Part shown: piece after piece, positions 13,966-36,316 of the stretch | Layout of the letters: every line of letters starts with the position of its first letter | Position numbering within the stretch: position 1 is the stretch's first letter | Origin: Pseudomonadota bacterium | Lineage (GTDB): Bacteria; Pseudomonadota; Gammaproteobacteria; Steroidobacterales; Steroidobacteraceae | DNA length: 64,000 nucleotides | Direction of reading: 5' to 3' | NCBI GenBank assembly: GCA_018241505.1 | Contig: JAFEDS010000029.1 | Span: forward strand, 62,001 to 126,000 | Made by a program: the position numbers and the translations under genes | The notes under the pieces: model-generated | What the model was told of the DNA's origin: nothing | Seen by the model: the letters and a program-made list of their open reading frames with translations, nothing else | Databases searched by the model: none

Positions 13966-14518
13966 ATGACCTTTCCGATCGCCCCCGACCCAATCTACCG
14001 TCGTCGCCGATTTGACGCCGCCACCATCCAGTTGTGCGTCCGGTGGTACGTCACCTATCGCCTCAGTTACCGTGACCTGAGCGCAATTTTGGCTGAGAAA
14101 GGCCTACGCCTCTCCACACGACCATCCTTCGATGGGTCATCCGGTATGTTCCTGAATTTGAGAAGCGGATCGCGGCGTTTTCGCTGCACAGGCCTTCTTC
14201 CGGAAGGCATTGAAGGGATCTCTCCCGCGTTGGCCGAGAAGGGTAACACTCGACGGTTTCTGATCGAGCCATCGAGCCCTGCGACTACTGCGGCGAGAAG
14301 ATCCGAAGTGGAAGTATGTGCGGGTGGGGTCCAGTCAATACCTAAACAACATTGTCGAACAGGACCACCGCGCCATCAAACGCCGCTGCGCCTGAATGAC
14401 CGGCTTCAAATCTTACCGGAACGCCGCCATCACCATCGCAGGCATTGAGCTCACTCATCGCATTCGAAAACGGCAGTTTCATTCGGGCGATGCAAGTGGC
14501 ATCGTTCCTGGTCCTTGA
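13966..14518 (+). mobile_element. Remnant of an IS6-family transposase
   Basis: The opening (YRRRRFDAATIQLCVRWYVTYRLSYRDLSAILAEKG) matches the N-terminal helix-turn-helix region of IS6/IS26-type transposases. In another frame from about 14280 comes the C-terminal DDE end (DPKWKYVRVGSSQYLNNI, VEQDHRAIKRRC, FKSYRNAAITIAGIELTHRIRK). The centre of the gene is missing and at least two frame changes and one stop (after KRRC) are needed, so it is inactive. No terminal inverted repeats could be made out. Confidence 0.75.
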
Positions 14519-14693: not shown

Positions 14694-14924
14694 ATGAATG
14701 ACCTCGACCGTAGATTCCGAGCCGCTCAACGTCGCCTGACGGCGAGCCTGAATCGAACCTCCCTCGGGGCTGTTGAACAGGACCCCGCGCCGCTGTTCGG
14801 GCTCGCTGCTGTATCTCTCGTGCAGCAACTAACCCGGGAGTGTTGGGCATTGGCCGGGAACGAAACTCCGGGGTACAGCCGCGTTCAGACACCCGTGAGG
14901 TTTGTGCCGGGCCGCCTCACGTGA
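14694..14924 (+). CDS. Small protein coupled to a nucleotidyltransferase-like gene
   Basis: This 76-residue frame starts at ATG 14694 (MNDLDRRFRAAQRRLTASLN) and ends so that its TGA overlaps the GTG start of the next gene by four bases (GTGA). That arrangement is typical of translationally coupled two-gene modules. Its C-terminus (TPGYSRVQTPVRFVPGRLT) is basic and proline-spaced. No family is recognised. Its place in front of a nucleotidyltransferase-like gene suggests an antitoxin or adaptor role, but that is inference. Confidence 0.45.
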   Translation: MNDLDRRFRAAQRRLTASLNRTSLGAVEQDPAPLFGLAAVSLVQQLTRECWALAGNETPGYSRVQTPVRFVPGRLT

Positions 14925-15381
14925 ACGAGCTGCCCGAAGATTTTCGGGATCTGTTGTTAGAGCTCGCAGATGCGGGTGCGGAATTCGTTTGGTGGGAGGA
15001 CATGCGGTGGCTTTTCACGGCCATCCACGTGCGACCAAGGACATGGACGTACCGATTCGCGCCAACACCAACAATGCCGAGCGCGTTTACCGGGCGCTCG
15101 CCGAGTTTGGTGCGCCACTGAATACCTTTGAGCTCAATGCAACGGATTTTGCGACCTACAGCGGCGTGCTGCAGATTGGACTGCCTCCGCGACGTATCGA
15201 CGTGTTGAATCGCGCTGATGGTATTACTTTCGATGAAGCCATTGCGGAAGGAGCGAGTTTCACACTGGAAGGCAGGAGGATTCCTGTGATCGGTCGCGCG
15301 GCACTCATCAAGAACAAGCGAGCCGCAGGCCGCGCACAGGATCTCGCCGATATCGAAGCCATCGAACCGAAAAAGGACTGA
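14921..15381 (+). pseudogene. Nucleotidyltransferase-like (AbiEii-type/DUF6036) gene broken by one frameshift
   Basis: Starting at GTG 14921, the frame gives VNELPEDFRDLLLELADAG and then falls out of frame at about 14988-14991. The shifted frame goes on with VGGHAVAFHGHPRATKDMDV, the nucleotidyltransferase core (GG...H...R.T.D.D), and runs to 15381 ending in RAALIKNKRAAGRAQDLADI, the usual K-N..A.GR.KD.AD end of this family. Restoring one base within GTTTGGTGGG would give a ~150-residue intact enzyme. In related toxin-antitoxin systems this fold is the toxin. It may be a true pseudogene or a sequencing error. Confidence 0.7.
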
Positions 15382-15693: not shown

Positions 15694-15864
15694 ATGGACA
15701 GCCGCGAGCAGATCGAAACGGGTCGGGTCTCCGAACAAGAAAAGATGGCCGACAGCAGCTCACAAGCTGATGCCGCCAAGTTGGTCGAGATGGGCAATGT
15801 CTCTGTAGAGACGAAGGGTACGATCCATGGCCTCGAGCTTGGATTCACGCCCCGGAGCTTCTAA
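15694..15864 (+). CDS. Lasso peptide precursor (A)
   Basis: This 56-residue peptide is directly followed by the lasso B and C genes. The leader is acidic and ends KLVEMGNVSVETK. The Thr at position -2 is the hallmark recognised by lasso proteases. The predicted core is residues 42-56, GTIHGLELGFTPRSF. Gly1 would attack the only acidic residue of the core, Glu7 (residue 48), forming a 7-residue ring and leaving an eight-residue tail LGFTPRSF. Phe10, Arg13 or Phe15 could act as steric plugs. The start ATG at 15694 has GAGG seven bases upstream; an internal ATG at 15745 is possible. Proteobacterial lasso rings are usually 8-9 residues; 7-residue rings are known from xanthomonins. The peptide's activity is unknown. 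Confidence 0.88.
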   Translation: MDSREQIETGRVSEQEKMADSSSQADAAKLVEMGNVSVETKGTIHGLELGFTPRSF

Positions 15865-15884
15865 CCTGACATGATCAGTAGTGC

Positions 15885-16661
15885 GTGACGTCGTATGGCG
15901 TCACGCATTGCTGCCTTGCGAAATCACGCCCTCTTCCGCCCCTCGGCGTGTTCTTCCTCCAGTCCCACATCTACCTCTGCCGGGCGCAACGGCACTGGGT
16001 AATCCTGGATGTCAATCGGGACAAGTATCTGTGCGTGGACCGGACGCAATTTGAGTCGCTCGGTCCCTGGATCGATGGCTGGGAGGGAACACCAGCACGG
16101 CGGCCCGCCCCTACCACAAGCCCTTCACCCGCAGCCGTCTTGCTGGCCAAGAGCCTGGTCAATCTCAAGATGCTGAGCGAGCAGCCGCAGGGAGCCAAAG
16201 AGGCCCGGGCGACCACATACGCTCACCCGACCCGATCGGTGGATCTGGATGAGTCAGTCAGCACTGCCCGATCCCGATGCATTTATGGCACGTCCTTCTT
16301 CCTTGGGTGCATGATCGCCTCGAGGCAACTGCGCGAGCAGCGGTTTGAGTCGATCGTTGCTTCCGTTCAGGCACGCAAACGCGCCGCGCGCGACAGCGAT
16401 CGGCCGTTCGACCTCGAACGGGCTCAAATCCTGCTGGCCGTTTTCAGCAGCCTACGGCTTTTTTATCCCCGACCGTACCTGTGTCTCTTTGACTCCCTCG
16501 CGCTCGTTCATTTCCTTGCACGCTTCGACTTGTATCCGGACTGGGTATTCGGAGTCCGAGCAGATCCGTTCGAAGCTCACTGCTGGGTGCAAGCGGGTGG
16601 GGTCGCGTTGAATGAGACGGTCGAGCGTGTGTCAGCCTTGACTCCGATCATGGCGATATAG
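15885..16661 (+). CDS. Lasso peptide B protein: leader-binding (RRE) and transglutaminase-like protease fused
   Basis: This 258-residue protein binds the leader of the precursor and cuts it off. Its N-terminal ~80 residues (SHIYLCRAQRHWVILDVNRDKYLCVDRTQFESL) form the PqqD-like recognition element. The C-terminal half is the B2 protease, with Cys200 in YLCLFDSLAL, His232 in DPFEAHCWVQ, and the closing LNETVERVSALTPIM. Spacing Cys-32-His-12-Glu equals that of the Cys-His-Asp triad in McjB, but the third position is Glu244 instead of Asp. The start is GTG 15885, 20 bases after the precursor stop; a GTG further in (about 15945) would also keep the recognition domain. Fusion of both parts is typical of proteobacterial clusters. 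Confidence 0.88.
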   Translation: MTSYGVTHCCLAKSRPLPPLGVFFLQSHIYLCRAQRHWVILDVNRDKYLCVDRTQFESLGPWIDGWEGTPARRPAPTTSPSPAAVLLAKSLVNLKMLSEQPQGAKEARATTYAHPTRSVDLDESVSTARSRCIYGTSFFLGCMIASRQLREQRFESIVASVQARKRAARDSDRPFDLERAQILLAVFSSLRLFYPRPYLCLFDSLALVHFLARFDLYPDWVFGVRADPFEAHCWVQAGGVALNETVERVSALTPIMAI

Positions 16662-16696
16662 GGCGGCGCCCGAAGCAATTACGGGAACGCGCACGC

Positions 16697-18532
16697 ATGT
16701 ACCATTTTGTTGCCCTTGTTTGGGACGATCAAAACTCGGAAGCACGAACGGTAGCTGCCCGGATGGGACAGCAATTGCGCCGAAGCGGCGCTCCGTGGGA
16801 ATCCCACCTATCTGCCGACGGGATGAGCGTCTTCGCGCTACCACCGGCGGATCCTGGTCTGCGCTCCTATGCACTCCCCGATAACGCCGGTGTTGTGTTC
16901 GGGCGTCTGTTTCCGGCAAACGCCTCAAATTCGCATTTTACCTCAGATGAGCAACTCAACGCGTCAACCGCTCACGAAATCCTCAGATCCACAGGCAAGT
17001 ATCTAGTCCGAAATTTCTGGGGCGGTTATGTGGCGCTGCTCAAGGATTCCGAAAAACGACAAAGTTACGCGATACGCGATTGTTCAGGAAAGCTCCCCTG
17101 CTACTACACGCGCCATCATGACGTCACGATTCTGTTCGCCGATGTCGCTGATCTGGCGCCTCTGCAGTTATCGCCGTTCACGATTAATTGGGAATACCTC
17201 GCTGCGTTCATCTACTCGAGTCAGATGCAGGTGAGGGCCTGCGGCTTCAAAGAGATCACGGAGGTCCTTGCCGGTGAGTATCTGCAGATCCGCGGCGATG
17301 GGGTACGCCAGAGTATCCTCTGGGATCCCCGTGAGATCTGTCGCGAAACGCCCATCGACACTTATGAAGATGCGGTCGCTGAACTGAGGAGCGTGACTCA
17401 GAGGTGTATCGATGCCTGGGCTCACACCTACAATTCCATTCTGCTGAGCCTCTCCGGAGGTTTCGATTCCGCGGCGGTGCTCGGGTGCTTGCATCATTCA
17501 CCGGTCCGTCCTGACATCGCCTGTGTCCATCAATTCACCGCGGCCGCTCATGACGACGAACGCCGCTATGCGCGGTTTGCTGCAGAGCGCGCCGGCGTTC
17601 CATTGACCGAGATTCTGATGGATGAGGCTTCAGGCTTCGACGCACGATTGCTTGCGGGGCCACAAACTCTCAAACCTACCGTTCCGGGGCTGTCAAGATT
17701 TCTGGAGATCGAAAAAATCAACCGAGTCGCGGACGCGGCCGGTGCGCGCATCTTATGGACGGGACAAGGTGGCGATCATATCTTTTTGCAGACTGCAGAC
17801 TTCTCGAGCGCTCGGGACTACCGGGTCACGCGGGGCATTCGGCGTGGCCTGATTTCCGCGGTGCGGGATGCGGCGAAGGTGTCGCGGCAGCCGTACTGGT
17901 CCGTGCTCACGTCGGCTCTGAGGCCCGCTCAGAGAACAGTGCGATCTTTGACACAGCTTGCCAGCACATCCTACTTCGTGACCACGTCAGCGCTGCCTCA
18001 AAACGCCGACGAGTATGTATCCCATCCTTGGACAACGGATGCGGACGACCTTCCACCCGGTAAGCGAATGCAGATCCGCTTTCTTGCCGAGGTCATCAAT
18101 CGGCACCGACCGCTTCCCCATCTCGAGCGTGCGGCCCAACATCATCCGCTGATGTCGCAGCCGCTGATTGAAACGTGCTTGAGAATTCCAACTTACTTGC
18201 TGATCCGGGGCGGCCGGGAACGGGCACTGGCTCGGGATGCGTTTGCCGACCGCCTCCCCCCGCAGATCCTGCGGCGGCGGGATAAGGGGTCTATCGTCTC
18301 CTACACAACCGAAATGCTGCGGCGGGGGGAACCCTTCGTGCGCGACGTCCTGCTAAACGGTGTTCTCGCGAGCTCGGGAATCATCGCGCCTGACCAACTC
18401 GAGCCCTACATCATGCGGGGCCAGCCCTTTCGCGAAGAGTACTTGCTACCTATCCTGGCTTGCCTCGCCGCGGAAATGTGGCTGCGCACCAGCACCCAGT
18501 CAGTTGCGGCCGCTGAGCCGCGGTCCGCATGA
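16697..18532 (+). CDS. Lasso cyclase C (asparagine synthetase-like)
   Basis: This 611-residue ATP-dependent ligase should adenylate the ring-forming Glu of the core and close the macrolactam. The N-terminal glutaminase-like domain (MYHFVAL...) lacks the Cys2 nucleophile, as in other lasso cyclases, so it does not use glutamine. The synthetase domain has the PP-loop SGGFDS (about residues 253-258), the second ATP/pyrophosphate motif WTGQGGDHIF, and GRERALARDAFADRLPPQILRRRDKGS near the end. The start ATG 16697 is 35 bases after the B stop, in one operon with A and B. The stop lies one base from the stop of the convergent TonB receptor gene. No ABC exporter follows. Confidence 0.9.
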   Translation: MYHFVALVWDDQNSEARTVAARMGQQLRRSGAPWESHLSADGMSVFALPPADPGLRSYALPDNAGVVFGRLFPANASNSHFTSDEQLNASTAHEILRSTGKYLVRNFWGGYVALLKDSEKRQSYAIRDCSGKLPCYYTRHHDVTILFADVADLAPLQLSPFTINWEYLAAFIYSSQMQVRACGFKEITEVLAGEYLQIRGDGVRQSILWDPREICRETPIDTYEDAVAELRSVTQRCIDAWAHTYNSILLSLSGGFDSAAVLGCLHHSPVRPDIACVHQFTAAAHDDERRYARFAAERAGVPLTEILMDEASGFDARLLAGPQTLKPTVPGLSRFLEIEKINRVADAAGARILWTGQGGDHIFLQTADFSSARDYRVTRGIRRGLISAVRDAAKVSRQPYWSVLTSALRPAQRTVRSLTQLASTSYFVTTSALPQNADEYVSHPWTTDADDLPPGKRMQIRFLAEVINRHRPLPHLERAAQHHPLMSQPLIETCLRIPTYLLIRGGRERALARDAFADRLPPQILRRRDKGSIVSYTTEMLRRGEPFVRDVLLNGVLASSGIIAPDQLEPYIMRGQPFREEYLLPILACLAAEMWLRTSTQSVAAAEPRSA

Positions 18533-18533
18533 G

Positions 18534-20861
18534 CTACCAACGTTTTGATAGTTGCACCGACAACATGCGCCCCAATGCGTTCGCATTGGCGCCATCAAAG
18601 TTGATACCCACCGAATTCAGAACCTCAGGAGGGTGTCTGTCCGCGAGATTGGTTATAGCCACGAGGAGAGCCAGATCGGCGAGCGGGCCTCCATCTGCGT
18701 TGAAGAGATACTTCACGGTCGCATCGACCGTGGTCCATGAAGCAACGGAAGCCGAATCCGCGCCTACGCCAACCCTATACGAATTCGTGTAGTTGACGAA
18801 CGTTGCCAATGTGAGTCCGCCGCGTCGCAGAACACCGCGAGCGCGCATCCGTAGATTCACCGGGTTGTAGGCGGTATTCAAGATTGAGACCGTGGGTGCC
18901 TCGGCCGTAAATTGATTCTCGAAGCCGAAGATGTAATTGCCATTGAGCCCTATCTCCAGATTGCCGATGCCGGTCAGACGGGCCCACGCCGCATCCAAAT
19001 CCAGACCGCTTGTTTTCTGGATTGAAAGGTTGTGCACACGCAAATCTACGATGGCGCCAATAGTGGCCAGATCAATGTCGAAGAGGTTGGTGAATCCCGG
19101 GCCGGCGGCTAGCTGCTGCACGAGGGCAGCAGAAGGGTTCCTCTGGATGATCGCCGGGCCGAGAATCGCTTCTTGGCTCAATGCGTTCAGAATGTCGACG
19201 CTGAACTCCGGGTCCGTCACAACGTCGCTGAAACGGATGTTGTAATAAGTCACACCGGCATGAAACTCCGGCAAGGACTGCGGTGAGAAGTCCAGTCCCG
19301 CCGTCCACGTGTGCGCTTTTTCCGGACTCAGGTGGGCGTTGCCGCCGAAGACGGCCAGTGCATTGGTCAGATCGCCGCTCGCCGGGTCGAACTCCGGTAT
19401 CGGGACGACCTGGAACGGGATGGGATTCAGGTCATTTAACAGGGGCGCGCGGAAGGAGGTTCCGTACGTGCCGCGTAACTTGACATCAGCAACCGGCCTC
19501 CAGATCAGGCCCACCTGCGGATTGTTGGTAGATCCAAAATCGCTGTAGTGTTCGGCCCGGTCGGCCAGCGTCAACTCGAGTAGATCGATGCCCGGCAGGC
19601 TGTTGCGGCCTCCAATGAGTGGCACACGCAGCTCGACGAAACCCGCTCCGACATTTCGGTGCGGATAAAACTCCGTCGTCGCGAGCACATTTCGGGAGTC
19701 GAAGCTTTCCCGTCGGAACTGGCCTCCAACCGCAAACCGCACATCGCCGGCAGGTATGGAAATCACGCTTCCATCCACTTTTGCATCGAACGACAGGATC
19801 CCGGAGTCAACTCGTTCGTTTGCCAGACTTCCTACGCCCTCGAGATCGCTACCATAGCGTGTGATGCTGCCTGCATAGGAGCCGCTCAATTCCAATTGCG
19901 CCCCGCGCGGAAGCTCGAAGCGGCCTCCACCGCTACCGCTAAAGCCGTCGATAATGGAGCTGGTGCGCAATTGTGCCTGGGCAGAAGCGCTCGCAGTGAC
20001 CGTCGAGCGATGGGAATAGTTGCCTTCCGCGAACAGTTGGATCGAGGGGGTAATCGAGTCATCTACCGAAAAAAAGGCGCTGTGCCGCACCTGCTGAGGA
20101 AGCAACATGAAGGGTTCAGGTGCGGATCGGGTGTACTCGCGGCTGCTGGCATCCAATGGAGTGCGATCCCAGTAGTCGTAGATCAATAGCGCAGAGCCGG
20201 TGTCCCAACCTCCGCCCAGAGTCTGACCCACCTCGGTCTCGCTCGTGGATCCACTGGTGACCCTGCCATACCGTACGCGGCTTTCAGCGCCATCGAGATT
20301 GCGCCCGAGGATGATGTTGACTACGCCGCCCACGGCATCCGAGCCGTAAATTGCGGAAGCGCCGTCGGTCACCACTTCAACACGTTCGACGGCATAGAGC
20401 GGAATCAGTGACAGGTCGACGAAATTTCCAGAGACATTGCCCGGCGCCACTCGATGGCCATTGACGAGAACGAGCGTGGCATCGTTACCCAAGCCACGTA
20501 AATTGACTCCTGTTCCCTGGACCGTGTTTGCCGCGTTGCCCCCTCCCGCAACGGATTGCACCGTGTTCTCCGAGGCCCCGCCGTTGAAATTTTGCGGCAG
20601 CATTTGGATGAACTGCTGCAGTGTGCCGGCCCCAGAGGCCTCGATCACATCGCGATTGTAGATCCAGATAGGGAATGCTGAATCGTTGGTACCTCGGATG
20701 TGTGTTCCGGTGACGGCAGCACCTTGGGGCACACTGTCAGCGGCTGTCGCCAGCCCTGGGAAGGGTAGCAGCAGGGCCGCTGCAAACGTAACAGCAAGCG
20801 GTCGCAGTTGCCTGCCAACCATCAGCGCGACGGCTGAGGGTGTATGTGGAGAATCAGTCAT
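18534..20861 (-). CDS. TonB-dependent outer-membrane receptor next to the lasso genes
   Basis: This 775-residue receptor has a signal peptide (PLAVTFAAALLLPFPGLATAA), a plug domain (VNLRGLGNDATLVLVNGHRV, VERVEVVTDGASAIYGSDAVGGVVNIIL) and a 22-strand barrel ending in the required aromatic residue (LSKRW). The start at ATG 20861 is preferred because GGGAG lies six bases upstream and the signal peptide then starts properly; the frame reaches 20945. It converges on the lasso cyclase gene with one base between stops. Proteobacterial lasso clusters often carry a TonB receptor thought to take the peptide back up, so this is a good candidate for that role. It lacks an STN signalling domain. Confidence 0.9.
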   Translation of the reverse strand: MTDSPHTPSAVALMVGRQLRPLAVTFAAALLLPFPGLATAADSVPQGAAVTGTHIRGTNDSAFPIWIYNRDVIEASGAGTLQQFIQMLPQNFNGGASENTVQSVAGGGNAANTVQGTGVNLRGLGNDATLVLVNGHRVAPGNVSGNFVDLSLIPLYAVERVEVVTDGASAIYGSDAVGGVVNIILGRNLDGAESRVRYGRVTSGSTSETEVGQTLGGGWDTGSALLIYDYWDRTPLDASSREYTRSAPEPFMLLPQQVRHSAFFSVDDSITPSIQLFAEGNYSHRSTVTASASAQAQLRTSSIIDGFSGSGGGRFELPRGAQLELSGSYAGSITRYGSDLEGVGSLANERVDSGILSFDAKVDGSVISIPAGDVRFAVGGQFRRESFDSRNVLATTEFYPHRNVGAGFVELRVPLIGGRNSLPGIDLLELTLADRAEHYSDFGSTNNPQVGLIWRPVADVKLRGTYGTSFRAPLLNDLNPIPFQVVPIPEFDPASGDLTNALAVFGGNAHLSPEKAHTWTAGLDFSPQSLPEFHAGVTYYNIRFSDVVTDPEFSVDILNALSQEAILGPAIIQRNPSAALVQQLAAGPGFTNLFDIDLATIGAIVDLRVHNLSIQKTSGLDLDAAWARLTGIGNLEIGLNGNYIFGFENQFTAEAPTVSILNTAYNPVNLRMRARGVLRRGGLTLATFVNYTNSYRVGVGADSASVASWTTVDATVKYLFNADGGPLADLALLVAITNLADRHPPEVLNSVGINFDGANANALGRMLSVQLSKRW

Positions 20862-20941
20862 CGAAGCTCCCAATGGAGGGATCAAGTGGCGGGCATGGAG
20901 ATCAGGCCCGTGTGAAGGCGGTGAGTTGGCACGATCGTGAG

Positions 20942-22606
20942 TCATGCGACGGCGTTCGTTTGGGTGGGTATCGGTTCAGGAGCAAAAGACACCTGGCCTC
21001 GTCCCGCTCGTTTTGCGACATACATTGCGCTGTCAGCGCGTCGCGCGAGCGCTTCGGGCGAATCCCCTGCGCCATTGGCGAAGGCAATACCGACGCTGGC
21101 GCCGATATGAACGTGGTGACTGCCGATATCGATGGGCCTTTGAATGTCGGCAATGATGGCGCTTGCGATTTCTTCCGCCTTGGATCGATCCGTTATGCCC
21201 ACCAGAACGACGACAAATTCGTCACCGCCAGGACGGGCGATCAAATCCCCGCGCCGGACGTTGCGCTCGAGGATCCGGGATACGTGGCGCAGTACCCGGT
21301 CGCCGCTTTCGTGGCCGTGGCCATCGTTCACTTCCTTGAAGCGATCGAGGTCGATCTGCAGCAGGGCCAACTGTGAAGACGTTTCAGGTAATGGCATGAA
21401 GAATACGGCCCCGAGGCGTGCGTCCAGCCCGCGACGGTTCAATAGGCCGGTCAGTGTGTCCTGACTCGCCAGTTCCTGTGCCGACAGCTCGTTCTGCTTT
21501 CGCTCAGTAATGTCGTTGACGACGCCCCGGAGCGCATTCGGACCGATCGGATTCAGAGTGACTTCTATCCACACCGAGCGTGCCCCCCCCGCCGCTGACA
21601 CATCGAGATCGAGGTCGTAGGGCTGTCCGGTATTCAGACACTGGTTCAGGAGTTGGTTGAGGCGCGCGCCATGAGACCCCAGCAACTGCTGCAACTGCGT
21701 GACTCCGGAGTGCGGCATCTGCTCTGGCGTCAGGTGCAGAAGACGTACGAAGGCCGGATTCCACGACTCTAGAACCCCGCGGTCGTCCATGACGAAGAGC
21801 CCGGTTTCGGCTTTCTCGACAATCAATCGCAGCTTGCGCTCGCCGATCTCGTGGGCGATGCGCAGTTGGCGCTCGGTCGTCACGAGATCCTCGAGGTTTG
21901 CAATCAGCGAGTTCACGTCCGTGACCAGAGTACCGACCTCGTCGTACCGGTTGTTGGCCGGCACGCGCAGGCGCGCACCCCTCTCATTGCGGATCCGGTG
22001 CAGCTCGGTGGACACGGCTTTGATGGGCCGGGTGGAGAAAATGTAGACGGCGAGCGCAACACCGACGGCCACCAGCGCGGCCTGCAGCCCCATCGCCAGA
22101 GTCGAATCGCGGCTATCGCTGGCGGCTTCGACATGAATCGCTGCACGATCCACGAATAACGTGAGCTCGCCGACTCGGTCCTGAGCATCAAACGGTGAGT
22201 AGATGGGCCTCGTGATCGTTGAGTTGTTGGCCCGGCCCTGGTGCGGCGCCGCGTTTTTTCCGACCCGAACGAGAGCAGTCTTTCCGGACACAATACTGAC
22301 GCCCGACACGGCACGATTGCGCATGAGTCCCTGCGCGATTTCGGCAGCCAGCGTCCGATCGTTCAGGTAGCAGGCTATTTGAGCCGTCCTTTCTATAGTC
22401 GAGAGGAGCTGCTGCAACTGCATTTCGCCGCGTTGCTGTTCGCGACGTTCGACGCTCGTGGACACAATCGAGGCGAATGACAGACCCAGGACCAACGAAA
22501 GCGCCAGGATTGCCAGCGTCGTGCGGGTGACGATGCTGCTGCGGATGCGTGCGTGAAGCCATCGCGTAAATCGGTTACGGAGAAAGCTCAAGGGCAATCC
22601 GCACAC
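20942..22606 (-). CDS. Membrane-bound PAS-GGDEF diguanylate cyclase
   Basis: This 554-residue protein is anchored by two membrane segments (about residues 28-50 and 170-190) that enclose a periplasmic sensor loop. They are followed by a HAMP-like linker, a PAS domain (about 265-385) and a GGDEF domain (about 390-545). The active-site motif RPGGDEF is intact, and an RRGD inhibitory site lies five residues before it, so it should make c-di-GMP with product inhibition. The start is GTG 22606, overlapping the end of the periplasmic binding-protein gene by 32 bases. That indicates translational coupling and suggests the binding protein senses the ligand for this enzyme. Confidence 0.88.
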   Translation of the reverse strand: MCGLPLSFLRNRFTRWLHARIRSSIVTRTTLAILALSLVLGLSFASIVSTSVERREQQRGEMQLQQLLSTIERTAQIACYLNDRTLAAEIAQGLMRNRAVSGVSIVSGKTALVRVGKNAAPHQGRANNSTITRPIYSPFDAQDRVGELTLFVDRAAIHVEAASDSRDSTLAMGLQAALVAVGVALAVYIFSTRPIKAVSTELHRIRNERGARLRVPANNRYDEVGTLVTDVNSLIANLEDLVTTERQLRIAHEIGERKLRLIVEKAETGLFVMDDRGVLESWNPAFVRLLHLTPEQMPHSGVTQLQQLLGSHGARLNQLLNQCLNTGQPYDLDLDVSAAGGARSVWIEVTLNPIGPNALRGVVNDITERKQNELSAQELASQDTLTGLLNRRGLDARLGAVFFMPLPETSSQLALLQIDLDRFKEVNDGHGHESGDRVLRHVSRILERNVRRGDLIARPGGDEFVVVLVGITDRSKAEEIASAIIADIQRPIDIGSHHVHIGASVGIAFANGAGDSPEALARRADSAMYVAKRAGRGQVSFAPEPIPTQTNAVA

Positions 22607-23036
22607 GGTTGTCGACGGAAGCGCGGTCTACGTAGGCTATGGCATTTGGATTGTTCGCCACGATGTCAACCGCCATGCGACCGTCGGCCACCGAGAACGG
22701 TGGCGAGATCTTCCCGGAGAACGTCAAGCGTGCCCAATACGAACTCATGTCCGCGGGGTCCTTGTGCGCAAGCACGAGGTAGAACTGCTTGCGCTCGTCT
22801 GAATTGATGGCGAGATCGATTGGCAGTGCCGACGCTCCCGAAGGGAAGGTTCGATACCGTCCCAGGAATATATCGAGTGCCTCGCGGCGGCTCAGATGTT
22901 GCACACCGATTGTCGGATTGACTATGACAACCAGCGTCTGTGCCGGCACGGCCTGCGCGACCGGCCAGAACGTAAATATCAACAGCACCCGCATGAATAG
23001 GCGCTTTCGCGTCGATCCAGACACGACAAACGTCAC
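22575..23036 (-). CDS. Small periplasmic phosphate-binding-like protein (PstS superfamily)
   Basis: This 153-residue exported protein has the short PstS-like fold often paired with signalling proteins. The motif SRREALDIFLGRYRTFPSGASALPIDLA, then FYLVL...DPADMSSYWARLTFSGK...PPFSVAD and NPNAIAYVD, are typical of it. The signal peptide is at RLFMRVLLIFTFWPVAQA. The start may be GTG 23036 (AGG eight bases upstream) or ATG 22994. It overlaps the diguanylate cyclase gene and probably supplies its periplasmic input. The ligand is unknown. Confidence 0.75.
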   Translation of the reverse strand: MTFVVSGSTRKRLFMRVLLIFTFWPVAQAVPAQTLVVIVNPTIGVQHLSRREALDIFLGRYRTFPSGASALPIDLAINSDERKQFYLVLAHKDPADMSSYWARLTFSGKISPPFSVADGRMAVDIVANNPNAIAYVDRASVDNRVRIALELSP

Positions 23037-31786: not shown

Positions 31787-34700
31787 TCACAAAGCCACGC
31801 GCAGCCCCAAAAAAATATTCCGCCCCAGGATGTCGTAAATAGGGAAGGTATTCAGATCCCCGCCCCGGCCAGTGACCTCCAACGGTACAAAGGGCGGATC
31901 TTTGTCGAACACGTTGCTGATGCCCGCGCGCACTTCCACGTGGCGGCTCAAACTCCACAGCGCTGCCAGGTCGAGATAGCTGTAGTTTGGAATACGCGTC
32001 AATACAGGATCCTGGAAACCCTCCTCCTGGGCTTGCAACAGCGACTGCGACGAGTTGTTGTCGAAGCCGGTGCGGCCGATGAAGCGCCACTGCGCAGACA
32101 GTTGCAGGTTCCACGGCGTTTCCCAGGTCACACGCAGATTGTGCCGCCAGCGCGGGCTGACGGAACCATTGAGACAGGTATCGCCGAACAAACCGGCGCA
32201 ATCGTAACTCGGCGCGCCTCGATAGCGCGTGGTGGTCGTATGTTGCAACCAGGTGCCCGTCAGGTTCGCGGTAAGCGCACCCCACTGCCCTGCCAGCAGC
32301 CGGCGGTAACTCGTCTGCATATCTATTCCGGAAACGAGCGCCGCACCCGTATTGACGGCGGTTGCCAGGATATAGCCGCCATTCGTGACCGTGGATCCGC
32401 TCAAGGCGCCTGTCGGCGTGCGGACGATCTGGCGACAGACAGTAGGATCACCGGTAGCCAGGCATTGTTGCAAGGTGACCGATTCGGGAACTACTCCGAT
32501 CTCGCCCTTCAGTCGTATCTGAAAGTAATCGACGCTGCCGGCGAGCGTTGGGATTTCGGTCGGCGAGAATGTCAATCCCAGCGACCAGGTGTTCGCGGTC
32601 TCGGGGGCCAGCGCCGCATTCCCTCCGAAAATCACGCCACAACCTGCTGAGCACTGGACCACTTTGCTGGTGCCGCCGGCCGCGGGACCGACGCCGTTTC
32701 CGTACTGAACCGGCGTGAGCCCGGTGCGCATGCATGCGGCGAGGCTTGCAGCGGCCGGCGTTACTCCGCCATCCGTGGGCGCACACGGATCGGTCTCGAT
32801 TGTCTGCGAAACGTTGTAGGACAGCGGTGTATGAAGCTCGATGAGATTGGGAGCACGTACGACCCTGTCATACGAAGCACGTAAGCGCACGTCGGTAAAA
32901 GGTGCGTATTGCAGATCGAATTTGTAGGTATTTGTGGTAACACCGGTGGAGTAGACCGAGTATCGATAAGCGCTGTCGACAGTGAGATCTTTGACGAACC
33001 ACCGATCTTGCGCAATGGGGGCACGAGCTTCCAGGAAACCATCGCTGACGGATACTCGTTCATCAATGGAAACGGGTGCGGCCCCATAACCGGACAGGTC
33101 CCCCGAAAGCTCTGTCGCATCAGGCGAAAACCGCAGTGTCTCGATGCGTCGCTCCGCACCTGCGTTGAAAGTCACACCTTCGTGCGCCCATGGTGCAACG
33201 AGCCCGTAGCGCGCTAGTTGCCCCGTGACACTCGCATCGATGATCTGCTCGGAATTGGCGCCACCGTCGGTACCGACAGTCGTCAAATAAGACAACTGTT
33301 GTGGCGTGACACCAGCGGCCTTGAAGATGTTATAAGGAACGCAGCCCCCTCCGCTGATACAGACAGCTCGTCCTGACTCATCCACCGTGACCTGCAGGGC
33401 ATTGGCAACTGCGGTACTGCTGAGGAAGTTGTTATGCACTTGCAGCAGCGAGGTACGGTAGTAAAGCGCATAGGCGTCATAGCTCCAACCATCGGCGATG
33501 TTGCCATCGATGCCGCCGACGATACGATAATTCCTATGCCGGTAGCTGGCCTGGCGACCACCGCCTTCAGCATTGCGGCGGCCGATGGCTATGTCCGCAT
33601 TTACGCTACCCGGCTCGGCGCGATCCGCCGCGATCTGCGCCGGTGTGCACAAAAGCGCGGCCTGCTGCGCGCTCAACAGGGGGTTGCTGCAATTTACGAG
33701 ATACCCGCCGTCGTCAGTGAGCGGGTTGGCACCGGCGAACAGTCCCGAGGGAGCAAATTGAGTCTGGGTCCGATCCTCCATCAAACTAAGCTCGAGGTAG
33801 GGTTTGGCTGCCTGACTGAATTCATAGTGAGCCAGGGCCCCTGCCTGATAACGGCTGTTTTGGCGCTGGGACGTGTAATACGGCGCGGCGTTGAAACGCG
33901 GCCCCGGCACGGCTCGATCATCCGGCCAGGGAACGAACTGATTCCCGACAACTGAATACGCGTCTCCCGCACCCGCATCGCGCACGAACAGGTTGGACTG
34001 ATTGCTCAAGAGACAGGTGACGCCGGTGTCGCTGGGCACAGCGGTCAGACTGTTCGTACTGTGGGCGGAACAGTCCGAGAAATCCCGGTCGGAGCCGTGG
34101 ACGGCATCCTGGCTGCGATAAATGAAGTATCCGGTGACGTGACCATTGCCGTCGTGCAAGTCAGAACCTGCAATGACAGATACGTCGCGCCTGAAGCCGT
34201 CAATTCCGCTGCCACGCGGCGGCGTGATGCCGGCATCGATTTCGCGCTGCTGAATGTAGGTATTCTGTTGGGTGTGCTGCGCGAATCCGTATTGACCATC
34301 GACCTGGAGACCTTGAAGGTCATCCTTCAAAATGAAGTTGACAACGCCGGCGATGGCATCCGAACCGTAGGTTGCCGATGCACCGCCGGTGAGCACCTCC
34401 ACACGCTCGATCAAAGCCAGAGGGATTTGATCCAGGTCCGGCGCCGGAGCAGGATTGGCGGTGTTGGGATCGCCGAGCCCCAGGCGTCGGCCGTTGATGA
34501 GAACCACCGTGCGTTGCGGACCGAGGCCACGCAAGTCTACAGTTGCAAACCCGCCGGCGCCCGCTGTTGGATTCGAGTGATTGCCGAAGTCTGCTCCCAG
34601 ACTGGCACTCATCTGCGGCAAGGCACTGATGAGATCCACTGCATCGTTGTGGCCTGCCAGGCGTATATCCTGGACGGTCAAAACTTGCATCGGGCCGGTG

Positions 34701-35251
34701 GCGATGATGTCTGGCGGCACCGCAATCCGCGATCCAGTCACCATCACTTCCGGTAGCTCAGGTGGAGATTGCCTTGCGGCCGGAAGTAACGGAGTACCAC
34801 CCGGAGGCGCCACCAGAATGCGCACACTGTGGGGTGTGAGGAACTCGAACCGTAGCCCGGTGCCCTCCAGCATTACACCCAGTGCGACGGCGGCGCTCAT
34901 TCCTGCCGCAGCGACATGGGATCTCTGGTCGCTAACCACCTTCGAGACATAAACAACGTGCAAGCCCGTCTGGCGCGCAAACTCGGCCAGTGCATCCGCC
35001 ATGGGCTGCTGTGGGATTGGGACGCTCAGTGCAGCAGGCGCGGCAGGCTGCGCAAACGTGCCGGGAATGTGGCACACGGTGACTGCCGCGAGAGCACTAA
35101 GGGCACGTAGCGCTCCGCCCAACCAGGGCAAAATGTTCGTCGCTGGGTGACTCAAGGACTCCCAATCCGTTGCAGCTCGGGCATCTTGGCGCCCTTTGAA
35201 CCGGCAGTTTAGTGCAATGACCGCCGTAGACCTAACTGTGCACTGCAGCAA
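31787..35251 (-). CDS. TonB-dependent receptor with N-terminal STN signalling domain
   Basis: This 1154-residue receptor starts with an export signal (ALRALSALAAVTVCHIPGTFAQ) and an STN (secretin/TonB short N-terminal) domain of about 70 residues (VPIPQQPMADALAEFARQTG ... VMLEGTGLRFEFL). A plug (VDLRGLGPQRTVVLINGRRL, VEVLTGGASATYGSDAIAGVVNFIL) and a long barrel ending in a terminal aromatic-poor strand follow (LGLRVAL). STN domains pass the ligand signal to a FecR-type regulator. Exactly such a FecI-FecR pair lies immediately upstream. The listed start is the TTG at 35251; the true start may be further in. The ligand is unknown. Confidence 0.9.
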   Translation of the reverse strand: MLQCTVRSTAVIALNCRFKGRQDARAATDWESLSHPATNILPWLGGALRALSALAAVTVCHIPGTFAQPAAPAALSVPIPQQPMADALAEFARQTGLHVVYVSKVVSDQRSHVAAAGMSAAVALGVMLEGTGLRFEFLTPHSVRILVAPPGGTPLLPAARQSPPELPEVMVTGSRIAVPPDIIATGPMQVLTVQDIRLAGHNDAVDLISALPQMSASLGADFGNHSNPTAGAGGFATVDLRGLGPQRTVVLINGRRLGLGDPNTANPAPAPDLDQIPLALIERVEVLTGGASATYGSDAIAGVVNFILKDDLQGLQVDGQYGFAQHTQQNTYIQQREIDAGITPPRGSGIDGFRRDVSVIAGSDLHDGNGHVTGYFIYRSQDAVHGSDRDFSDCSAHSTNSLTAVPSDTGVTCLLSNQSNLFVRDAGAGDAYSVVGNQFVPWPDDRAVPGPRFNAAPYYTSQRQNSRYQAGALAHYEFSQAAKPYLELSLMEDRTQTQFAPSGLFAGANPLTDDGGYLVNCSNPLLSAQQAALLCTPAQIAADRAEPGSVNADIAIGRRNAEGGGRQASYRHRNYRIVGGIDGNIADGWSYDAYALYYRTSLLQVHNNFLSSTAVANALQVTVDESGRAVCISGGGCVPYNIFKAAGVTPQQLSYLTTVGTDGGANSEQIIDASVTGQLARYGLVAPWAHEGVTFNAGAERRIETLRFSPDATELSGDLSGYGAAPVSIDERVSVSDGFLEARAPIAQDRWFVKDLTVDSAYRYSVYSTGVTTNTYKFDLQYAPFTDVRLRASYDRVVRAPNLIELHTPLSYNVSQTIETDPCAPTDGGVTPAAASLAACMRTGLTPVQYGNGVGPAAGGTSKVVQCSAGCGVIFGGNAALAPETANTWSLGLTFSPTEIPTLAGSVDYFQIRLKGEIGVVPESVTLQQCLATGDPTVCRQIVRTPTGALSGSTVTNGGYILATAVNTGAALVSGIDMQTSYRRLLAGQWGALTANLTGTWLQHTTTTRYRGAPSYDCAGLFGDTCLNGSVSPRWRHNLRVTWETPWNLQLSAQWRFIGRTGFDNNSSQSLLQAQEEGFQDPVLTRIPNYSYLDLAALWSLSRHVEVRAGISNVFDKDPPFVPLEVTGRGGDLNTFPIYDILGRNIFLGLRVAL

Positions 35252-35254
35252 GAC

Positions 35255-36316
35255 TCACTTCTGCGTCACGCGAATCCGGGTGGCCGTCACCTCCACCCTC
35301 ACTCCTTCCAGACTGCGCAGGAAGGCCAGAAACTCATCGGGATTGTCCGTAGAGAAGACTCCACTAACCTCCAGGCCGCGCAACTCGGGCGCGGTAATTT
35401 CGACCGGCTTGGCCGCGTAACGGTTGAATTCGGCCGCGACGCGCTCCAACGGCTCATGATCGAACACGATCTGTCGATGCATCCAGGCGGTCGTGCGGCT
35501 GGCATCGATGTGCGTGAGAGCAATCGGCCACCGTCCCTCAGCCACACTGACTTGCTGGTTGGCACCCAACTCGATGGGCTGGGATGAGTGGTGGCCCGGC
35601 GGAGGTTTGACCGCAATCCGCCCGCTGACCACGGTCACGACGGTGGCTTCCGGTTTCAGTCGAACAGCGAAGCGCGTCCCCAGGTCCACTATTTCGGCCG
35701 GCCCCGCGCTGACCCGAAACGCGCGCTTCGGCTCGTGGACCACGTCGAAGGCGGCCTCACCGGAAGTGAGAACCACGAGCCGCTCAGCCCGGCTGTACTG
35801 GACGGTGAGCGCAGTCTGCGTATTCAGATGGACAACAGTGTTGTCTGGGAGTCGGAAACTGCGCTGCTCTCCGTGGCGCGTTTCCAGGTGCAATGCGGTC
35901 GGGACGTTGGGTTCCCTCATTCGGTTGCCGGATGTCCGATCCCACAACATCGAGCCCAAAAAGGCTGCGGCGACTACTACCCCCGCGGCCAGCGCATACC
36001 AATGAAAATGCCGGCGGGTCTGGACTGTGCCTGCCTCTTTGGAACCGAACCATCGGACCCGATCATCATCGGAATCTGTTCGCGCGCGTGCAATGAGTGC
36101 ATCCATTGAGTAGTCAGCATTCGTGCCAACGGCATGGAGGTCACGCGCTATTGCCGCCACACTCAGGAACTCCTCTACATGCATCGGGGAGGCCTTTAAC
36201 CAGTCCACCAATGCCCCGGATTCTTCGGTGCCCAGCGGCGTCTCGTCGTTCCTGACGAACCATTCGCTTGCCTGTTCCGCAATGGCGGTACGAACTTGTT
36301 TGTCTCTGGCGTTCAT
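35255..36316 (-). CDS. FecR-family anti-sigma/signal-relay protein
   Basis: This 353-residue inner-membrane protein has an N-terminal cytoplasmic domain (QASEWFVRNDE...) that holds the sigma factor and one membrane segment (about residues 105-127, ALAAGVVVAAAFLG). The periplasmic FecR domain follows (TRHGEQRSFRLPDNTVVHLNTQT ... GEAAFDVVHEPKRAFRVSAG) with a C-terminal STN-like part. The ATG 36316 starts four bases after the sigma-factor stop, and the receptor follows directly. It relays receptor occupancy to the ECF sigma factor. Confidence 0.9.
   Translation of the reverse strand: MNARDKQVRTAIAEQASEWFVRNDETPLGTEESGALVDWLKASPMHVEEFLSVAAIARDLHAVGTNADYSMDALIARARTDSDDDRVRWFGSKEAGTVQTRRHFHWYALAAGVVVAAAFLGSMLWDRTSGNRMREPNVPTALHLETRHGEQRSFRLPDNTVVHLNTQTALTVQYSRAERLVVLTSGEAAFDVVHEPKRAFRVSAGPAEIVDLGTRFAVRLKPEATVVTVVSGRIAVKPPPGHHSSQPIELGANQQVSVAEGRWPIALTHIDASRTTAWMHRQIVFDHEPLERVAAEFNRYAAKPVEITAPELRGLEVSGVFSTDNPDEFLAFLRSLEGVRVEVTATRIRVTQK

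Follow-up and report, generated by a model that had tools for sequence, protein, structure and literature searches.

A probable class II lasso peptide operon with a predicted seven-residue ring and no isopeptidase at its locus

Introduction

Lasso peptides are made by a standard chemistry in which a B protein recognizes the leader of the precursor and cleaves it off, a cyclase (C) activates an acidic residue with ATP and forms the amide, and the tail is threaded. A gene set of this kind lies on the plus strand, at 15694-18532, of a 64,000-nucleotide stretch of Steroidobacteraceae DNA (contig JAFEDS010000029.1 of assembly GCA_018241505.1; the whole stretch is called the window), in the order precursor (A), fused B protein and cyclase. 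It poses a double question: which ring would its peptide have, and what might that peptide do at a locus without the isopeptidase of its sister clusters? With a probability of about 0.82, the locus is a class II lasso peptide operon; its predicted product is a new lasso peptide, set apart by its ring motif, by matched receptors and by the missing isopeptidase. The host genome (G000) is a draft of 7.88 Mb in 46 contigs, 93.9% complete.

The Lasso Gene Set

15694..15864, plus strand: precursor gene A, leader ending in KLVEMGNVSVETK and core GTIHGLELGFTPRSF; sub-cutoff profile matches and an orthologue in locus L037
15885..16661, plus strand: gene B, an RRE-like leader-binding domain fused to a transglutaminase-like leader peptidase (NF033537, Transglut_core3, alignments and an AlphaFold2 model)
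16697..18532, plus strand: gene C, asparagine-synthetase-like lasso cyclase with an SGGFDS motif and no Cys2 (profiles and sequence)

Profile searches and comparison with relatives agree on what the three genes are and on their order, A-B-C, and both bear out the original prediction, made from the DNA letters, of a complete plus-strand lasso set of three adjacent genes. Its 56-codon precursor at 15694-15864 runs as described from ATG 15694 to the stop at 15864 (56 amino acids), although the start may instead be the internal ATG 15745. B, which it took for the leader protease, matches NCBIfam lasso_biosyn_B2 well above the cut-off (70.2 bits against 33) and also Pfam Transglut_core3; the cyclase, described as lacking the Cys2 nucleophile, begins with MYHF and matches Asn_synthase at 84.6 bits (cut-off 21). 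The claim that the set reaches 20861 fails: the plus-strand genes stop at 18532 and the rest of that interval is occupied by a minus-strand TonB-dependent receptor (TBDR, 18534-20945), on which the prediction was silent, as it was on the lack of an isopeptidase.

The listed start of B, GTG 15885, falls within an RNA hairpin (15876-15913), residues 1-16 are disordered in the AlphaFold2 model (pLDDT 85.5) and most relatives align only from about residue 22; GTG 15948 is thus the likelier start. In the model, residues 23-93 form four strands and two helices, a topology that fits a winged helix/RRE, and are followed by a confident C-terminal domain; no RRE family match to B was found in Pfam or NCBIfam. 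Cys200, His232 and Glu244 lie on the C-terminal domain, at the positions of the Cys/His/acid triad of the B family. Cys200 and His232 are invariant in nine aligned rows, and the acid is Asp in most of 23 rows and Glu in the window and four others; Glu at position 244 was checked as a possible anomaly and, given those four rows, is none. A search of PDB sequences gave no credible match for B and returned beta-lactam synthetase for C (E 0.0009).

The closest relative, genome G444, has a B protein 57% and a C protein 56-61% identical to those of the window. Among the genus genomes, 28 of 58 hold a relative of C (E <= 1e-40); the family gives 28 of 217 (E <= 1e-80) and a sample from the order 15 of 396 (E <= 1e-100), in overlapping sets that each count the host's own genome; a search of the class with the window cyclase matched two of 369 genomes at E <= 1e-60, again including its own. 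A scan of contigs with the window cyclase as single query gave no match.

The Precursor and its Core

The window precursor ends in MGNVSVETK followed directly by the core GTIHGLELGFTPRSF (codons 15817-15861), which is free of cysteine. Over the end of the leader it is matched by Pfam Subterisin PF24178 (E 0.0019) and NCBIfam benenodin NF033522 (E 0.029), both below cut-off. An orthologous precursor occupies the equivalent position in G444, where KLVEMGSVSKETK precedes the core GIARGIEYGLTPKGG, as against KLVEMGNVSVETK and GTIHGLELGFTPRSF in the window. Over 28 codons the two differ at 8, 8 and 15 sites by codon position, an excess at the third; nine codon changes are silent and 11 bring a replacement.

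Upstream of B homologues, the motif G-x-[VAIL]-x3-T-x plus a following core that carries Asp or Glu at positions 7-9, defined after the first precursors had been inspected, is matched in 75 of 108 upstream region rows and not in the other 33; counted as distinct regions by their last 150 bases, it is matched in 37 of 63, where mononucleotide shuffles give a chance expectation of 0.046 per upstream region. A core starting elsewhere was ruled out, as relatives also have Thr at -2 and one further residue ahead of Gly1.

Ring Size across the Family

The window peptide is predicted to have a seven-residue ring, closed at Glu7, the sole acidic residue of the core. The original prediction had read the locus in the same way: Thr at -2 is present in the window and in the closest relative, Glu7 is indeed the only acid, and Gly1 and Glu7 are both conserved in G444. 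As for its caveat that homologues might start the core elsewhere or fail to conserve the Glu, the start and Glu7 are kept in the closest relative and the prediction withstands it, although more distant relatives carry the acid at 8 or 9. Its remark that the core is not known to match any lasso peptide is in line with the literature searched, in which the ring strings of the window, G444 and G565 were not found.

Ring sizes were compared in 25 Gly1 cores, a set that excludes sphingomonad cores, the second tandem precursor of L078 and the four cores that do not begin with Gly (G333, G010, G000:C46 and, on the plus strand, G000:C1). Five of them carry the acid at position 7: GTIHGLE in the window, GIARGIE in G444, GRFAGFE in G565, GAYSGYE in G528 and GYSAGLD in G529. 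In the others it stands at 8 only (17 cores), at 8 and 9 (one) or at 9 (two). The idea that a seven-residue ring is unique to the window was thereby ruled out. All five, from five genomes, share Gly5, a hydrophobic residue 6 and Glu or Asp at 7; the sequences themselves show Gly5 and the acid at 7, like Gly1, to be conserved. From the composition of positions 2-6, Gly5 with hydrophobic residue 6 has a chance of 0.068 per core, or 1.4e-6 for all five if independent; the five cores are not independent and the motif was named after inspection.

The cyclase tree places all five inside an 18-row clade (100/100), together with 12 eight-ring clusters and one for which no core was called; the window pairs with G444 (100/99) and G528 with G529 (100/100). 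The G673 core (acids at 8 and 9) and a Sphingobium row were assigned to no ring group.

The TonB-Dependent Receptor

18534..20945, minus strand: TBDR, convergent with C, a single base separating the two stops; no STN domain matched at the N-terminus

The window TBDR is 64% identical to that of G444. In a tree of 17 receptors, the four seven-ring ones (window, G444, G565 and G529) form one clade (100/99), recovered in 100% of 200 bootstrap trees; G528 is absent from the tree, its contig ending ahead of the receptor. Receptor and predicted ring size therefore go together, and the receptor appears to track the ring size of its presumed ligand. In profile scans, each of three TBDRs of the isopeptidase type (G565, G432 and G453) shows a sub-cutoff match to an STN domain, and neither the window nor the G444 receptor does. 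No sigma/anti-sigma pair lies next to the window TBDR, whose neighbours are a diguanylate cyclase (DGC) and a PstS-like gene. A second TBDR with a FecR gene (35255-36316) lies at 31787-36316, roughly 11 kb away from that of the lasso cluster, and is a separate receptor system.

The Missing Isopeptidase and Exporter

An S9 isopeptidase, whole or as a piece at a contig end, lies 3' of C in 16 of the 18 clusters of the cyclase clade. At E <= 1e-12 an S9 peptidase is found there in 14, with a TBDR next in 13 and the G528 contig ending within the peptidase; a laxer search adds G530 and G036, with isopeptidase ends 3' of C at contig ends (E 8e-12 and 6e-46). The window and G444 are the sole two clusters without one, giving no match even at E 1e-3, and C and the TBDR there abut end to end; the lack of an isopeptidase at the window locus is thus apparent from the DNA itself. 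Among solved proteins, the lasso isopeptidase AtxE2 is matched by the G565 peptidase at E 3e-16; another S9 peptidase, 8wt1, scores better (E 9e-29). A profile built from nine enzymes of this kind gives 782-850 bits for the cognate enzymes within it and 240 bits for one outside it, which in G444 lies on a separate contig next to a piece of a different TBDR. In G000 the same profile has 20 matches, the best at 140 bits, and none of the 20 lies in the window.

The ABC transporter of the sister clusters lies near 11 of the 18 (10, plus G036 in the laxer search). Neither the 64-kb window nor the G444 stretches contain a match to it, in a comparison that did not extend to unlinked exporters.

The Hairpin between A and B

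15876..15913, plus strand: RNA hairpin of 17 unbroken pairs, three of them G-U, between A and B (z -5.72)

None of 200 dinucleotide shuffles of the window hairpin is equally stable, and a stem-loop lies 3' of the A stop in all 14 clusters selected for folding. In nine of them the stem exceeds mononucleotide shuffles clearly (z -3.6 to -5.6). Such a hairpin would probably keep A in excess over B and C.

Proposed Mechanism

The processing, ring bond, threading and uptake of the window peptide are steps that we infer from these genes. B would recognize the leader with the winged-helix-like domain at its N-terminus and, with Thr(-2) as guide, cleave the bond that joins Lys(-1) to Gly1; C would then activate Glu7 with ATP and join it to the Gly1 amine, giving the seven-residue ring GTIHGLE, through which the tail LGFTPRSF would be threaded (predicted [M+H]+ 1613.843). 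As the adjacency of the receptor is conserved and it co-segregates with predicted ring size, the TBDR may take the peptide back into the periplasm, by itself or together with a cargo. Once imported, the lasso should persist and would probably not be linearized by a dedicated enzyme, since the usual ring-opening isopeptidase is missing beside the cluster.

Several points weigh against this reading or parts of it. The lasso peptide is predicted from genes, in a draft genome with an estimated contamination of 5.67%. The precursor family matches lie below the curated NCBIfam and Pfam cut-offs, those of the NCBIfam lasso cyclase models to C lie below the NCBIfam ones, and the structure model of C is unusable (pLDDT 48.6), so that its identity rests on sequence. 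In five of the 14 folded clusters the stem barely exceeds shuffles (z -1.3 to -2.2). A trans-acting isopeptidase in G000 is possible, because a profile match of 109.5 bits adjoins the C46 lasso cluster of that genome and low scores can thus belong to real isopeptidases. Finally, the five seven-ring clusters do not form one cyclase clade (three changes), a single clade not being rejected (p-AU 0.395). One origin of the seven-residue ring was accordingly not upheld by the cyclase tree, which does not resolve it; the receptor tree supports one origin.

Neighbouring c-di-GMP Genes and Possible Functions

20942..22606, minus strand: PAS-GGDEF DGC, overlapping the listed TBDR start by 4 nt; HAMP match below cut-off
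22575..23036, minus strand: PstS-like protein of 153 amino acids with an N-terminal signal-like stretch, overlapping the listed DGC start; weak TIGR02136 match

The best NCBIfam match of the DGC is DgcN/YfiN (181.8 bits, cut-off 325), and that of the PstS-like protein to TIGR02136 reaches E 0.0013 (18 bits, cut-off 206.6), with no Pfam match. Relatives of the DGC occur in six of 58 genus genomes at E <= 1e-80, the host's own included. In G444 a DGC of 50% identity lies on the opposite side of A-B-C and the PstS-like gene (72.5%) directly ahead of the TBDR; in G035 the PstS-like gene, DGC and TBDR stand in a row, at 68/64/64% identity and in different surroundings, up to a contig end within the TBDR, the remainder of which was not found assembled in a search of that genome. 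The PstS-like/DGC pair also occurs without such a TBDR in a 14-kb stretch of G022 and in the short flanks of G019 and G025. Judged by these loci the pair is general, but in three genomic settings it is accompanied by a TBDR of the window type. In the literature searched, the three papers that name both lasso peptides and diguanylate cyclases appear to deal with other subjects.

The window set suggests a lasso peptide read out via c-di-GMP. The lasso would be a signal or scout: the PstS-like protein would sense its uptake through the TBDR and control the PAS-GGDEF enzyme and thereby c-di-GMP, an output that would replace the isopeptidase and STN-linked output of the sisters. The three genes share a strand and have overlapping listed ends in the window, they surround A-B-C in G444 and recur as a row in G035, and exactly the window and G444 lack the isopeptidase among the 18 clusters. 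Yet the pair, which occurs without this TBDR in G022, G019 and G025, is not lasso-specific, the G444 DGC is in another orientation and the joining of its two contigs only inferred, and G035 has no assembled A-B-C there. With two to three loci in all, and control of the DGC by the PstS-like protein a guess from adjacency, this reading is unlikely. Its fullest form, in which lasso peptides serve as outer-membrane-receptor signals and the TBDR, PstS-like periplasmic sensor and PAS-GGDEF DGC form a unit turning small-ring lasso recovery into c-di-GMP in place of a lasso-destroying isopeptidase, must be called rather improbable.

The peptide might instead be antibacterial, exported and directed against relatives that take it up via similar TBDRs. 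Cyclase relatives with varied cores in 28 of the 58 genus genomes would fit conflict-driven diversity, and the absence of an isopeptidase at the locus agrees with it; a review ties the D transporter gene to antibacterial activity (PMC7549694), but the 64-kb window, to which the exporter search was confined, gives no match to the ABC transporter that accompanies 11 of the 18 sister clusters, and such a role is doubtful. Decay is a further reading: a cluster without isopeptidase, STN domain and exporter would be a pathway in the course of being lost, with little or no peptide produced. Three accessory features are indeed missing relative to the sisters, and the two upstream open reading frames (ORFs) scanned have no Pfam match above cut-off; against this, A, B, C and the TBDR are all open, B retains its Cys and His, and G444 has the same reduced set at 56-64% identity with a conserved core pattern, so that the set has long been kept. 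Decay is very improbable, and a class II lasso operon remains the preferred reading of the locus.

Comparison with Known Systems

To our knowledge, seven-residue rings are the smallest lasso rings and few have been described. The xanthomonins (Hegemann 2014) are said to close Gly1 to Glu7, reportedly with core letters unlike those of the window, and huascopeptin is said to come from Streptomyces. Xanthomonins I-III, likened here by description, are class II peptides with already known seven-residue macrolactam rings like that predicted for the window (PMC7549694, PMC13352647), and huascopeptin, likened by title and description, has a Gly1-Asp7 ring as predicted for G529 (PMC13352647). StcA of Stenotrophomonas acidaminiphila has a predicted seven-residue ring, GILQGNE, that shares Gly1, Gly5 and Glu7 with the window; it differs in having Asn6 in place of a hydrophobic residue and a 20-residue core with further acids, and is a prediction too (PMC4675943). 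A search with the StcA precursor, run without a positive control, matched none of 369 class genomes.

Astexin/benenodin-type clusters resemble the window in having A-B-C without an ABC transporter and a TBDR nearby, as outlined in a review that also lists GntR, TBDR and sigma/anti-sigma genes as shared by isopeptidase clusters and terms the function of their peptides enigmatic (PMC9266682). The window differs in the lack of an isopeptidase at the locus, in the DGC and PstS-like gene beside the TBDR and in the predicted ring of seven. Metanodin, from an uncultured Steroidobacterales member, is a lasso peptide with mass spectrometry support obtained from a refactored cluster; it differs in that its ring begins with Asn and its closest clusters carry an isopeptidase gene. 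Its Steroidobacterales cluster was made to work in E. coli, with an optimized ribosome-binding site where the A-B hairpin would stand, and was the only one of eight tried that gave a product (PMC12670498).

A natural series of five members that share a ring motif, come with matched receptors and are predicted to close by Glu or by Asp would allow tests of ring-size limits and of receptor reading, and the two clusters without isopeptidase that sit with a DGC make a signalling role directly testable. If a product is found, the variant would be worth a name of its own.

Other Observations

Upstream of the cluster, the ORF at 13966-14448 has a start resembling that of an IS6-type transposase; it seems cut off and has no Pfam match. 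The ORF at 14902-15381 has a sub-cutoff match to the nucleotidyltransferase family PF10706 (E 0.025). No GntR-like gene was seen before A among these two upstream ORFs by Pfam scan.

The host genome carries four further lasso-type cyclases, at loci including C1, C26 and C46 (L043, L045 and L044); odd predicted cores at its other loci are GVPLLLLFEVGTPPTNRLFVF (ring 9) and RNNPHNGADSLGGFLI and KTSGPSDGQLPRF, in which residue 1 is not Gly, and the C26 cyclase has one in-frame TGA. In L040, L046, L047 and L048, lasso B-C sets diverge in pairs with an ABC transporter between them; the motif used finds no precursor for the second set of each pair, and a TBDR follows C on the same strand in three of these four second sets, the L046 contig ending first.

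The predicted cores of L074 (G646) and L080 (G762), GCGNSGLEFWVIPSRRDCM and GCGNEGIEFWTVPSRYNCL, have Cys2 and a penultimate Cys and are possible ring-tail disulfide lasso peptides. An Asn residue at position 1 is reported as first observed in metanodin (PMC12670498). The L035 precursor of G010 ends in GKVTTETQ followed by NAKISFTPEPVSPQQYLPL, a predicted Asn1-Glu9 core, and lasso cores with Asn1 may form a wider group.

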